Assembly: GCA_030612185.1 (NCBI GenBank)
Contig: JAUWOI010000182.1
Span: forward strand, 1 to 8,116
Source: Anaerolineae bacterium
Lineage (GTDB): Bacteria > Chloroflexota > Anaerolineae > B4-G1
Direction: 5' to 3'
Length of the DNA: 8,116 bases
Below are positions 3-3,540 of this stretch, one piece after another; positions within the stretch are counted from its first letter, which is position 1; every line of letters begins with the position of its first letter. Under the pieces are notes generated by a model. It saw only the letters and a list, made by a program, of their open reading frames with translations, made no database searches and was not told where the DNA came from. The position numbers and the translations under genes were made by a program.

Positions 3-569
3 CCCAGCCGCCTCCAGGTCGAGGTGGGGCTGTACGACCCTGAAGCGGGTGAGACGCTGGGCGCGGTATGGGTGGGAGAGGCCAAACTGGCCCCCCCGGA
101 GGCCGCCCCCCCGGTGGCCCATCCGCTGGCGGTGGATCTGGCCGATGGGATAGCCCTGCGGGGCTACGGCCTCTCGCCAGCGGGCGGGGAAACACTGCCC
201 CTACAGCAGGCGGTGGGCGCTGCGCCGGGGGAGGTGATCACGCTGACCCTCTACTGGGAGGCGCGGGATGCGCCCTCGGCCGACTACCAGGTCTTCGTCC
301 ATCTGATCGGCGCCGGACCGGAGCCGGTGGCGCAGGGGGATGGGCCGCCGCTGATGGGCGACTACCCGACGACGATGTGGGCCTCTGGTGAGGTCATCGC
401 CGATCCGCACCCGGTAGCCTTGCCGGCCGGCCTTCCGCCGGGGCGGTACCGGCTGCTGGTGGGGATGTACGACCTGGAGACGCTGGCCCGCCTGGCGCGG
501 CTGGACGGGGTGAGGGACAGCGTCGAAATCCCCGCCATCCTGGAGATATCATCTGATCCTAGTCAATGA
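3..569 (+). CDS. C-terminal end of a large envelope protein (glycosyltransferase/membrane-protein C-terminal beta domains), 5' partial
   Basis: The reading frame is open to the left edge of the window and stops at TGA 567-569, so only about 188 C-terminal residues are seen. The sequence has one full copy and the tail of another copy of a domain of about 150 residues. The phrase 'RLQVEVGLYDPEAGETL' at the start is repeated as 'RYRLLVGMYDLETLARL' near the end. Between them are the hallmarks LRGYGL, LTLYWEA, YQVFVHLIG, AQGDGPP, YPTTMW and LPPGRYRL. From memory of the family, this beta-sandwich-like module is common at the C-terminus of Chloroflexota GT39-type glycosyltransferases and related multi-spanning membrane proteins, probably outside the membrane. 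The catalytic part would lie left of the window, so enzyme identity is inferred. The last 7 nt overlap the 3' end of the convergent toxin gene. Confidence 0.75.
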   Translation, partial: PSRLQVEVGLYDPEAGETLGAVWVGEAKLAPPEAAPPVAHPLAVDLADGIALRGYGLSPAGGETLPLQQAVGAAPGEVITLTLYWEARDAPSADYQVFVHLIGAGPEPVAQGDGPPLMGDYPTTMWASGEVIADPHPVALPAGLPPGRYRLLVGMYDLETLARLARLDGVRDSVEIPAILEISSDPSQ

Positions 570-961
570 GAGGAATATTCCGTGACCTCCTGAGCAATTA
601 TGCGCAGGACGTCCTGGATACTGAGAGGTTCACTGGGGATGACACGATTCTCACTGCCGTCGTGACAATGGTGAGGGAAGTTATCCATCTCTGGGTGATG
701 GGGGCTACTATCCCACCGCTTGCGCAGGGTGGCCCGATCACCACTCATCCACTGGTGCCGATAATCAACGACTTCGGCGCCGGTAGTTCTCAGGCGAAAA
801 GCCTCGGCCGCTTCAAGGAAATCGTCATTGCTCAGCTTGACGCGCACGCGGAGGTAGCCGGTCTGCGAAGTCACACGCTGGCGCACAACCGTATAGTCCG
901 CGACGATGTGGCTCTCCACCAGGGCGACGTGGATGGCAGCCAGATACTCATCCGCAGTCAC
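563..961 (-). CDS. TumE-family (DUF6516) toxin-like protein
   Basis: This encodes 132 residues if it starts at GTG 961-959, which shares one base with the stop of the upstream gene (TAGTG); GGAAG lies just upstream as ribosome-binding site. A longer frame to 1036 lies inside the antitoxin gene and is unlikely. The C-terminal half carries the family signature: YLRVRVKLS at 36-44, an RHQW strand at 68-71, RRWD-type 'KRWD' at 81-84, then SPHHPE (86-91) and NFPHHCH (94-100), followed by a helix 'EPLSIQDVLRIIAQEV'. The clustered histidines 88, 89, 97, 98 and 100 are the expected functional residues. The family is described as the toxin of TumE/TumA toxin-antitoxin systems; the mode of action here is inferred. 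It is translationally coupled to the putative antitoxin. Its end overlaps the convergent envelope gene. Confidence 0.82.
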   Translation of the reverse strand: MTADEYLAAIHVALVESHIVADYTVVRQRVTSQTGYLRVRVKLSNDDFLEAAEAFRLRTTGAEVVDYRHQWMSGDRATLRKRWDSSPHHPEMDNFPHHCHDGSENRVIPSEPLSIQDVLRIIAQEVTEYSSH

Positions 962-1284
962 TACGCTTCCACTCTGCTCTGCAACAACTGGAGCCGCTCC
1001 TGCACTTCGAGGGCCATCTGGTACAGCACGTTCCATTCCATAAAATCGGCTGTGTCAGGCATTTCGCCAGCCTGCCAGCGCCGGAAGAATTCGTCGGAAC
1101 TGAGTTGATATCGCTGTTCCAGATCGCGCAGGTCGTGCTCCAGGTCACGTAGCACCACCCTGTCGCGTGCTGCCTGGCTGCTGGCGATCTTGAGCAGGGT
1201 CACATCGGTCACTGTGTCCCGGAATCCATGTTCGTACAATTGCGTCAGGTTGTGTAACACGCGCAGTGGAGCCAGTGTACTCAT
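961..1284 (-). CDS. Putative antitoxin partner of the TumE-like toxin
   Basis: This encodes 107 residues from ATG 1284-1282, with a strong AAGGAG ribosome-binding site six bases upstream. The protein looks all-helical: 'LTQLYEHGFRDTVTDVTLLKIA' (13-34), then a charged heptad-like helix 'RDLEHDLRDLEQRY' (46-59), then SSDEFFRRWQAGEM (62-75) and an aromatic helix DFMEWNVLYQM (80-90). I recognise this pattern (a membership-and-repeat helix, 'LE.rY.mSs.eF..r.qaGe..D..dffeW..ly') as a small protein often next to DUF6516 genes in cyanobacteria and Chloroflexota. It has no obvious XRE helix-turn-helix, unlike the classical TumA antitoxin. It is first in a two-gene operon with a recognisable promoter upstream. 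The antitoxin role is inferred from size, order, overlap and partner. Confidence 0.68.
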   Translation of the reverse strand: MSTLAPLRVLHNLTQLYEHGFRDTVTDVTLLKIASSQAARDRVVLRDLEHDLRDLEQRYQLSSDEFFRRWQAGEMPDTADFMEWNVLYQMALEVQERLQLLQSRVEA

Positions 1285-1358
1285 GAGATACTCCTTAGAT
1301 ACTTCTTGTTTCCAAATGAGAGCCAGGGAAGCGGCAGGATGATTTTAGCGACATTACA

Positions 1359-1387
1359 ATTATACCTCTGTCCTCCCGTAAAAGCAA
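1359..1387 (-). promoter_or_regulatory. Sigma70-type promoter of the toxin-antitoxin pair
   Basis: On the minus strand a -35 box TTGCTT (1387-1382) and a perfect -10 box TATAAT (1364-1359) are separated by exactly 17 bp. Transcription would start near 1352, giving a leader of about 68 nt before the antitoxin ATG. The -10 box lies inside the outermost arm of the inverted-repeat element. Confidence 0.72.
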
Positions 1388-1579
1388 CGCGCGCGCAGCA
1401 CATCGTGGGTGCATTTCAGTTTTGGGGCGAACCTTCCCGAAAGCTTGAAAATGCATTGCAGGCGCCAAAAATGCAGTCCCAAAGCGCCGAAACGATTGCA
1501 GGATGCCTTGTTTGGGCTTTCGGGAAGGTGGCTCGCGGAAACTTGCCCCCAATAGGAAATGCACCCTGATCGTGTGCTA

Positions 1580-1609
1580 TTGGCAGAGTTGGGACATAAG
1601 GGGTATAAT
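1580..1609 (+). promoter_or_regulatory. Sigma70-type promoter for the acidic protein and O-antigen ligase genes
   Basis: A -35 box TTGGCA (1580-1585, five of six consensus bases) and a perfect -10 box TATAAT (1604-1609) are separated by 18 bp. The start would be near 1616, leaving an unusually long leader of about 165 nt before the ATG at 1783. Within the leader I see no riboswitch or tRNA-like fold I can name; it contains a GTACC-TT-GTACC direct repeat at about 1750-1761. Confidence 0.68.
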
Positions 1610-1782
1610 TGTCGTAAGCGTGTATCCTTTTTTGGTCGTGGAGTCATTGTGAAGATTCGGGAGTAACCGGCGTTTGATTTTATGGATGCTTACAAGCCTC
1701 AAGTAGCCAGCCCATCGTCGGCACCGTAGGGGTAGCCTGTCTAAAATCGTACCTTGTACCTGGGGCAAACTGAAGGTCATCT

Positions 1783-2049
1783 ATGATTTACAATCCTGAT
1801 ATGACAGACTCAGACCTGCTGGGTGAAGAGAATCAGAATTCACTTGTTGAGAGAGTCTTCGATAGTCCTGATGCCGTTAGTCAGGGTGAGTATACTGCTA
1901 TCTATGAGTTCTTGCTAAACCCGGATATTTGTGATGATCCTGATGCAATTGCAGGGGTCCTGCAAGAGTTCTCTGGTTGGGCTCAACACATGTTAGAGAA
2001 GATGCGACAACTTGACTTGATAGACCAGACTCGGGCACGTGAGCAATAG
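1783..2049 (+). CDS. Small acidic hypothetical protein
   Basis: This encodes 88 residues from ATG 1783, with GAAGG seven bases upstream; a second in-frame ATG at 1801 has no ribosome-binding site. I do not recognise the family. The protein is strongly acidic (about 19 Asp/Glu against 5 Lys/Arg), has no signal peptide or membrane span, and looks helical, especially 'AIAGVLQEFSGWAQHMLEKMRQLDLI' (55-80, given in parts: AIAGVLQEFSG, then WAQHMLEKMRQ). The codons often end in A or T (GAT, GTT, TAT, CTA, AAC mixed), unlike the GC-ending codons of the genes either side, which suggests a different history. It lies 18 bp upstream of the O-antigen ligase gene on the same strand, so it is probably cotranscribed from the promoter at 1580-1609. 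No function is proposed. Confidence 0.6.
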   Translation: MIYNPDMTDSDLLGEENQNSLVERVFDSPDAVSQGEYTAIYEFLLNPDICDDPDAIAGVLQEFSGWAQHMLEKMRQLDLIDQTRAREQ

Positions 2050-2067: not shown

Positions 2068-3540
2068 ATGTCCTCCCAAGACTTGCTCTACCGCATCTTC
2101 ACCTCCCGCCACCGCTGGCTGACGGTGCTGTCGACGCTTGTGTTATGCGCGGCGCTGGCTCTCGCCGTAGGCTACCTGCTGGCTGAGTTCGGCGCTCTCA
2201 TCGCCGGAGCGGGATTGGTGGCCCTGTTCCTCGGCCTATGGATGCTGCGCGATATCGAGGCGGCTTATTGGGCTGTCATCGGCGTCGTTTGCCTCCTTCC
2301 CTTTGCCTCCTTCCCGTTTGAGATTGGCTTCACCCCCACCTTCCTCGACGCCGCCCTGGGGGCGCTGTTCCTCGTGTGGGTGCTCCAGATCGCCACCGGC
2401 GACCAAAGAGAGTTCGTCGGCACGCCGTTGGGATTGCCCATCGCTGTGTTTATGCTGCTGGCGGTGGGGGCCTTTGTCTTCGGGCTGGCCCACGCTCCGC
2501 CGACCTCCTACGTCCTGCGTCACTTCGCCGAGGTGCTGCTCAGCATAGCCCTGTTTTTCCTCATCGTCAACACCGTGCGCGACGCGGGACGGCTGCAACG
2601 TTTCGTGCGCGCGCTGCTCCTGTGCGCCTTCGCCGCTGCCGCGCTCGGCGTTCTGCTCTACATCATCGCCGATCAGATCTCCGACGAGTTCGTCATCCGC
2701 GCCCTCTCCGCGCTGGGTCGGCTGGGCTACCCCGCCGGGCCGGGCGTCCTGCGCTACATCCGCGATGATCCAGAACTGTCAATGCGGGCCGCCTCTACTT
2801 CGGTGGACCCCAACGTGCTGGGCAGTCTGCTCAGTCTGACGCTGTGCATCGGCGTGGTGCAACTCTTTGCCCGGCGGCCCATCATCCGCCGCCGTTATCT
2901 CGTGCCGGTGCTGGGCGTGATGGCGCTCTGCCTGGGGCTGACCATCAGCCGGGGTTCGTGGGCGGGAGCGGGGGCTGCGCTGGCCATCGTCGCCACCCTG
3001 CGCTACCGCAAACTGTGGCCGCTCCTGCTCGTGGCGCTGGTGATCGTGCTTCTCTTGGCCCCGGGCCAGGTTGCGCACTTTATCGAGGGGTTGCGGGGCC
3101 AGGACCTGGCCACCCAGATGCGCTTTGGCGAGTACAAGGACGCGCTCATCTTGATCGGGCGCTATCCGTGGCTGGGCGTAGGTTTCGCCGGATCGCCCGA
3201 CATTGACACCTACATCGGCGTCTCCAACGTCTATCTCCTCATCGCCGAGCAGATGGGGCTGGTGGGCCTGGCCAGTTTCCTCGTCGTGATGGCCGTCTTT
3301 TTCGCCCGCTTCTGGCGCACCCTCGCCCTGGCATTGGCCGACCCGGAACTGGAACCGCTGTTCTGGGGGCTGCACGCCGGCATTGTCGGGGCGCTGGTGG
3401 GGGGCATCTTTGACCATTACTTTTTCAACCTGAATTTCCACCACTCTGTCACCCTCTTCTGGCTGGTGGTCGGGCTGGCGACGGTGGCGACGGAGATGAT
3501 CCGGCGGCGCGCAGGGCAGGCATCACAATCCAACGGGTAG
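2068..3540 (+). CDS. O-antigen ligase/polymerase family membrane protein (Wzy_C)
   Basis: This encodes 490 residues, mostly hydrophobic, with around a dozen predictable membrane segments (for example 20-60, 64-82, 91-108, 122-140, 153-170, 179-200, 248-266, 277-293, 298-311, 316-331, 397-414, 434-447, 460-475). The Wzy_C region is clear: LTISRGSW at 291-298, the periplasmic part with RYPWLGVGF at 365-373, and SNVYLLIAEQMGLVGL at 386-401. FDHYFFN and HHSVTLFW follow at 448-465. Proteins of this family join or polymerise sugar repeat units on lipid carriers at the outer face of the cytoplasmic membrane. The exact acceptor cannot be told from sequence, especially as many Chloroflexota lack classical lipopolysaccharide. 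No good ribosome-binding site precedes ATG 2068, so expression may depend on coupling with the small gene 18 bp upstream. A strong terminator follows. Confidence 0.88.
   Translation: MSSQDLLYRIFTSRHRWLTVLSTLVLCAALALAVGYLLAEFGALIAGAGLVALFLGLWMLRDIEAAYWAVIGVVCLLPFASFPFEIGFTPTFLDAALGALFLVWVLQIATGDQREFVGTPLGLPIAVFMLLAVGAFVFGLAHAPPTSYVLRHFAEVLLSIALFFLIVNTVRDAGRLQRFVRALLLCAFAAAALGVLLYIIADQISDEFVIRALSALGRLGYPAGPGVLRYIRDDPELSMRAASTSVDPNVLGSLLSLTLCIGVVQLFARRPIIRRRYLVPVLGVMALCLGLTISRGSWAGAGAALAIVATLRYRKLWPLLLVALVIVLLLAPGQVAHFIEGLRGQDLATQMRFGEYKDALILIGRYPWLGVGFAGSPDIDTYIGVSNVYLLIAEQMGLVGLASFLVVMAVFFARFWRTLALALADPELEPLFWGLHAGIVGALVGGIFDHYFFNLNFHHSVTLFWLVVGLATVATEMIRRRAGQASQSNG

Follow-up and report, generated by a model that had tools for sequence, protein, structure and literature searches.

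Insertion at a fixed distance upstream of sigmaA promoters is known for TnGBS, for ISLre2 and for members of the ISKra4 group. The direction of insertion is set by their unequal ends, and the accessible text of the same study describes 13 elements with nearly equal ends that have promoters on both sides (PMC3942029). Copies of ISLre2 and ISKra4 prefer positions 50-250 bp from the nearest gene according to the available part of PMC9208149, a preference that fits the promoter-aimed reading. The word MITE is absent from the main text of PMC3942029 in its accessible form, 'miniature inverted' occurs in the available part of PMC9208149 only as a reference title, beside ISKra4, and PMC9021871, which also contains that term, names in its available part only ISKpn19 of the ISKra4 family. 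Some miniature elements, Correia elements among them, are known to have internal promoters (PMC10969869, accessible part). As far as the searched literature goes, promoter-aimed insertion is known, but in transposase-less, hairpin-filled miniatures it seems to be undescribed.

Here we analysed a palindromic intergenic region in a stretch of 8,116 nucleotides from an Anaerolineae bacterium, the whole of which is called the window below. The palindrome, at 1356-1612, is genuine, yet it is not a single element. The features are as follows, in window positions.

563-1036, minus strand: TumE toxin gene (Pfam PF20126, E 7.4e-17).
961-1284, minus strand: TumA-like antitoxin gene, the left neighbour (PADLOC PDC-M44A, E 2.1e-10).
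1356-1366: left outer arm, 11 bp perfect with 1602-1612, containing a minus-strand TATAAT (1359-1364).
1359-1387, minus strand: weak candidate promoter directed towards the TumA gene (TTGCTT 1387-1382, TATAAT 1364-1359).
1400-1406: left copy of a candidate decayed target duplication, 5 of 7 letters the same as in 1567-1573.
1407-1566: layer B, putative miniature element whose terminal inverted repeats (1407-1428 and 1545-1566) are of the ISKra4 type.
1430-1530: layer C, a palindrome of about 100 bp from a separate family (arms 1431-1444 and 1516-1529).
1567-1573: right copy of the candidate decayed target duplication, 5 of 7 letters the same as in 1400-1406.
1580-1609, plus strand: sigma70-like promoter facing the 88-aa ORF and the Wzy_C gene (TTGGCA 1580-1585, TATAAT 1604-1609).
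1602-1612: right outer arm, 11 bp perfect with 1356-1366, containing a plus-strand TATAAT (1604-1609).
1783-2049, plus strand: conserved 88-aa ORF, the right neighbour (29 homologues; no Pfam family).
2068-3540, plus strand: Wzy_C O-antigen ligase-like gene (Pfam PF04932, E 1.2e-14).

An earlier note on this DNA had described three nested perfect arms of 11, 11 and 14 bp on one axis, with outward TATAAT boxes that each have a -35 box. All three pairs of arms were recovered. The outer pair extends to 14 bp at 93%, the middle pair (11 bp perfect, 1407-1417/1556-1566) lies within a 22-bp pair at 82% (1407-1428/1545-1566), and the 14 bp of the inner pair (1431-1444/1516-1529) are perfect. The axis is common to within 6.5 nt, the centres lying at 1484 (outer), 1486.5 (middle) and 1480 (inner). 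The region 1350-1620 is predicted to fold as a single long hairpin, with a z of -5.3 as DNA and -5.5 as RNA, and none of 200 shuffles was as good in either. Both TATAAT boxes and the right -35 box stood up to inspection, and the left -35 box is poor. The observation was thus confirmed in part, and the interpretation that the note attached to it was supported in part.

Computation assigns each of the two inner layers to a repeat family. B is 160 bp long, which is below the size for a transposase gene, and it therefore holds none. Compared with 16 related genomes, its sequence gave short scattered matches, chiefly to 1406-1431, and at an E threshold of 0.01 it matched 15 of 99 relatives. When the 22-letter end was searched with at most three mismatches, with the reversed pattern as control, it was found at 72 places in six of the 16 related genomes, and at 289 places in eight of eight further genomes, which had been chosen for having matched earlier; the reversed control gave 0 in both searches. 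Exact patterns of the B end gave 0 matches in viral contigs.

In genomes G003 and G081 a distance of about 75-155 bases mostly separates the end motif from a contig end, as repeats that break assemblies would lead one to expect. The sequence inside the B-type end there encodes the terminus of a transposase, matching the last positions of the ISKra4 model NF033572 (E 9.8e-5). This transposase end has 16 matches in G081 and four in G003; a Pfam search of its 38 aa gave no match. At locus L303, an ORF encoding a longer fragment (NF033572 E 5e-49; 167.5 bits, under the cut-off of 205) overlaps the B-type end GGGTGCATTTCAGGATGGGGGC. ISKra4 genes were detected in 33 of the 99 relatives, six of them over the cut-off, while two of 14 control genomes gave a match, none over the cut-off. 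B thus has the same ends as a transposase-coding member, the mark of an ISKra4-derived MITE. Exact flanking repeats accompany 29 of 58 B pairs (18 of 8 bp, nine of 9 bp and two of 7 bp) and are lacking at the other 29; the window's own pair is counted here, as it is among the 46 C pairs below. The modal length of the related copies is 153 bp (27 of the 58 pairs). At the flanks of B in the window there is no exact target duplication, the best candidate having 5 of 7 letters.

Judging from these sequence comparisons, we hold with high confidence that B is an ISKra4-type miniature. The suggestion of a MITE-like element is therefore upheld for 1407-1566, whose ends are common to ISKra4-family copies with target duplications and to transposase-coding relatives. 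Within the accessible part of PMC3942029, the ISKra4-group insertion sequences are like B in that its ends are common to transposase-coding copies and its relatives have duplications of 7-9 bp; unlike them, B is without a transposase gene, measures 160 bp and has another family's palindrome as its interior. Several B elements elsewhere (L083, L108, L124 in G013, L141 in G043 and L151 in G027) have other inner palindromes instead of C.

The promoter-like sites were scored by a simple consensus count made for this analysis, not by a trained model. Both of them (1359-1387 and 1580-1609) lie outside 1407-1566. The right promoter, TTGGCA-18-TATAAT, agrees with the consensus in 11 of 12 letters, and its -35 and -10 boxes stand 13 and 37 nt outside the B end. 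The left site combines a perfect -10 box with a -35 box, TTGCTT, that agrees in 3 of 6 letters; it scored 10 in one scan and was unlisted in another, and 42 nt separate the B end from the start of its -10 box.

The relatives of B reveal where such promoters usually stand. In the discovery set (65 ends without the window, 67 with its two), outward promoters were present at 28 of the 65 B ends versus inward promoters at two, and for 23 of these 28 the -35 lay at 14-16 nt. As controls, two further families of palindromes gave 5 outward and 5 inward of 57 and 9 and 3 of 125, at scattered distances. With the score fixed beforehand, outward versus inward promoters numbered 20 versus 2 of 42 ends in G027, 8 versus 1 of 23 in G042 and 5 versus 0 of 28 in G043. 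This repeat test comprised 20 regions from each genome, the 42, 23 and 28 usable ends comparing with 85, 25 and 45 listed places. The discovery set had also held loci of these genomes (L139, L147 and L151 of G027; L145 and L292 of G042; L141, L149 and L152 of G043), and three of the 60 regions (L408, L409 and L419), which overlap discovery loci, were kept.

The full set drew on all collected loci; ends were merged if their first 30 outside letters agreed and dropped if fewer than 100 nt lay outside, and those of G048, G049, G054, G058 and G081 entered through automatically gathered loci only. Its 194 distinct B ends, the window excluded, have 80 outward and six inward sigma70-like promoters. 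For 60 of the 80 the -10 starts 36-40 nt from the B end, not one of the 80 has it at 41-45 nt, and three of the six inward promoters fall in the mirrored distance range. The corresponding controls gave 6 outward and 5 inward of 59 ends for family D and 11 and 5 of 120 for family C, with one each at 36-40 nt. By this score, 114 of the 194 B ends are free of an outward promoter; about half would be expected to be so, because only one end should face a promoter. Apart from the -35 and -10 boxes, the sequence outside the B ends is unrelated between copies. The promoter distance is thus fixed in the relatives, as the computation shows, and the right promoter of the window stands at that distance. 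Its -35 at 13 nt is matched by one of the 80 other outward promoters, which puts it at the short edge, and it lies within the 13-17 bp from the element-genome junction given in the accessible text of PMC3942029.

One type of end faces the promoter in G027. There, promoters that score at least 10 and lie at 13-18 nt were seen at 16 ends, every one of the GAAT type, and at 0 of the 21 other ends, and a looser score of 9 yields one pair (L372) with a promoter on both sides. The promoter stands at the same kind of end in five of five one-sided pairs of G043, and at the other end type in the pair L389 of G042. Neither end has a promoter at the usual distance in 5 of 21 pairs of G027, 6 of 10 of G042 and 3 of 8 of G043. 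The fixed distance upstream of a sigma70/sigmaA promoter and, in G027, the single end type that faces it are likenesses to the ISKra4-group elements as presented in the available text of PMC3942029. TnGBS and ISLre2 (p-MULT 3; PMC3942029, same part) are like B in their oriented insertion, theirs being 15-17 bp upstream of the -35, and unlike it in that their transposase is of another branch and that they are conjugative or normal-sized and mostly from Firmicutes. Correia elements, as the accessible part of PMC10969869 presents them, are likewise short inverted-repeat elements beside genes with outward promoter sequences. However, the Correia promoter is inside the element, whereas the promoter-like sites of B are outside its ends. 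The earlier proposal of an element that brings portable promoters is therefore not supported, the sites being external and the outside sequence of the relatives differing from copy to copy.

The direction of the window's own insertion is less clear from its ends. For promoter-aimed members of the ISKra4 group, the right inverted repeat would be expected on the promoter side. The left end reads GGGGCGA, which is promoter-side-like, the right end GGGGGCAA is far-end-like, and similarity scores conflict between genomes; a first reading of the right end as the promoter-side type was not borne out by the fuller end comparison. The resemblance of the left end through GGGGCGA, together with the promoters found on both sides of elements with nearly equal ends (PMC3942029, accessible part), would suit an insertion aimed at the left (TumA) promoter, or a directionless one between two divergent promoters. 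We nevertheless consider this unlikely, as the left -10 lies at 42 nt, in the 41-45 nt interval where none of the 80 outward promoters falls, and only half of the left -35 box agrees with the consensus. The right promoter stands where the B family inserts, and the left one is best seen as the neighbouring gene's own. As far as sequence evidence can carry it, aimed insertion at a promoter thus has our high confidence for the B family and fairly high confidence for the window copy.

Layer C belongs to a second family. With at most one mismatch, its arms occur at one place or more in 37 of 99 genomes, single matches being at control level; counts are well above control in G005 (16), G008 (16), G015 (12), G059 (17) and G094 (15). 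The 46 C pairs comprise 20 at 32-51 bp, 19 at 93-101 bp and seven intermediate ones, with the window's at 99 bp, and the interiors of the long cores align. No target duplication was seen at these 46 pairs, and a single scan of offsets 0-20 next to C likewise showed no sign of one. The short forms, hairpins of 32-51 bp with no duplication seen, look to us like repetitive extragenic palindromes, which we presume them to resemble. Miniature elements of other kinds seem to have inserted in the right arm of C copies at L085/L455 (G015) and L214 (G008); at L085, 8 bp of that arm are repeated.

C copies are found within several kinds of outer arms: GTAACTGCTCAG in G008 and G005, GTAAGCGTTCAGC in G094, a third kind (L216, G094), and B in the window. 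The outer flanks are complementary at p<0.05 in 10 of 50 distinct C copies, the window included, against an expected 2.5; at one of the ten, L183, the flank match is distant from the core and probably fortuitous. The B-C junction, with at most three mismatches, occurs in two of 396 genomes of the class. At L455 a B-like end follows directly after C, and a TATAAT starts 37 nt outside that end. The GTAACTGCTCAG family numbers 320 places in G005, 145 in G008 and 122 in G015 (control 3, 1 and 3), and 13 of 20 GTAACTGCTCAG loci in G008 hold 14 paired copies, mostly layered hairpins, five with exact 8-bp repeats. Its ends presumably resemble IS66 ends. Within the layered hairpins of this family at L316-L335 (G008), L324 and L325 have an extra tip hairpin compared with L323 and L330.

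Without C, B would be an element of about 60 bp with 22-bp ends. The axis common to B and C can be explained thereby, since an insertion into such an element that spares its ends must fall near the axis; a targeting of hairpin tips is unneeded as a cause, the sparing of the ends being sufficient. C stands unevenly between its flanks (3-8 nt on one side, 13-19 nt on the other), but the idea of a fixed geometry was dropped, as L216 has 8 and 0 nt. Because C is a palindrome, its two sides are set by the orientation of the locus. The nested hairpins raise the question why unlike miniatures have a common axis. A rather speculative reading, to which we give low credence, is that C palindromes are mobile, make no target duplication and settle at the symmetry axis of unrelated miniatures, their outer arms being of at least four kinds in these genomes. 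Multi-layered hairpins upstream of promoters would then be modular and kept by selection, as opposed to debris left by chance.

The outermost layer behaved differently from B and C in the searches. Its ends, ACAATTATACC, searched exactly at a spacing of 220-250 bp, gave 0 matches in genome contigs and 0 in viral contigs, and at 60-90 bp, the spacing without B, 0 in the 396 class genomes. A near-exact search of 99 genomes found no convincing relative of the right outer arm; a 36-nt match in G004 (83%, E 0.005 for one of 99 genomes) is at about chance level over all 99. Taken alone, the outer layer aligned locally better than shuffles at p 0.0008, for a region picked after the fact, and the palindromy of the stretch inside the 11-bp arms, up to B, is not significant (p 0.30). 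The layer's support amounts to 11 bp, of which 6 are -10 consensus, and we take the identity of the two -10 regions to be chance plus the common promoter consensus. That the outer arms are a third element is held with low confidence. Searches also gave no Rfam family at the gathering score and no plasmid match; in two phage records about 28 bp matched at E 1, which we attribute to chance. Outside the right arm, GTAAGC at 1614 faces GCTTAC at 1688 (1614-1693), which may be the ends of a further decayed element.

These results bear on the proposal of the earlier note that 1356-1612 is one long-armed element with outward promoters in both ends; such an element would work in the manner of Correia elements. 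The 11 perfect bp at both outer ends, the folding of the whole length and the precedent of promoters inside miniature elements (PMC10969869, accessible part) would all agree with it. However, the exact and near-exact searches of genome contigs, viral contigs and class genomes left its ends unmatched, the related elements end at GGGTGC and have their duplications there, and the stretch between the outer arms and B is palindromic no more than by chance; we therefore regard such an element as quite improbable. The lack of a second copy and of conserved arms, named in the note as counter-evidence, is what these searches found for the outer arms, and it does not extend to the two inner layers, which have copies in relatives.

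The genes around the palindrome have a history of their own. The TumA-like gene, which has homologues in 31 of the 99 relatives, is named for its position beside TumE. The 'polysaccharide operon' of the earlier note is a generous term, for it consists of one Wzy_C gene, the rest being the 88-aa ORF and, next downstream of Wzy_C, an ECF sigma factor gene. The closest named relatives of the Wzy_C protein are of the Anaerolineae/Thermoflexia kind of Chloroflexota. Homologues of the 88-aa ORF and of Wzy_C (P0123 and P0020) are both on 98,853-size contigs, which suggests that the two adjoin elsewhere, and the ORF may regularly stand next to Wzy_C. In five relatives (L008, L012, L013, L014 and L022), less than 50 bp separates the end of the match to the gene at 3-569 from Wzy_C, as compared with 1498 bp in the window, and this interval contains no toxin-antitoxin pair and no 88-aa ORF. 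In the window, a gap in an older gene pair is therefore filled by the toxin-antitoxin genes, the palindrome and the ORF together (570-2060). Among the loci collected, none has the same neighbours as the window, and no copy of the locus without B was found. The closest relative among these loci, L001, has several long tandem repeats upstream of Wzy_C (1-700).

A shared operator palindrome that co-regulates the toxin-antitoxin pair and the polysaccharide gene, the other suggestion of the note, would draw on the symmetric -10 regions with their 11 identical bp. Its half sites would stand 235 bp apart with two repeat-family layers in between, though, conservation of the arms was not found in the searches made, and five relatives have no toxin-antitoxin pair and no 88-aa ORF between the upstream gene and Wzy_C. 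With the outer arms found nowhere else in the contigs and genomes searched, we give this explanation almost no weight.

We consider it probable that the palindrome arose by a nested, promoter-targeted insertion of a non-autonomous ISKra4-family element with C inside. In this account the element at 1407-1566 would have inserted between two outward-facing genes, its interior being a second palindrome of about 100 bp from another family (1430-1530). The insertion point would lie just upstream of the -35 box of the sigma70 promoter at 1580-1609, a choice of site known for ISKra4-group transposases. The right core promoter would be left intact, with about 50 bp between the element end and the start, and the insertion may have been tolerated for this reason. 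The promoters probably predate the element, because the parent transposon family inserts at a set distance upstream of promoters. We infer that an ISKra4 transposase moved the window copy in trans, that the right promoter was its target and that the promoters are active.

Given that promoter-aimed insertion is published for the ISKra4 group (PMC3942029, accessible part), the element would represent a miniature, hairpin-filled version of a known behaviour, and what appeared to be a promoter-carrying element becomes a case of promoter-seeking transposition. The aim of the ISKra4 group is thereby indicated also for transposase-less miniatures, in large numbers, among relatives of uncultured Chloroflexota. 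In genomes without transcription data, copies of B mark promoters and could help to map them.
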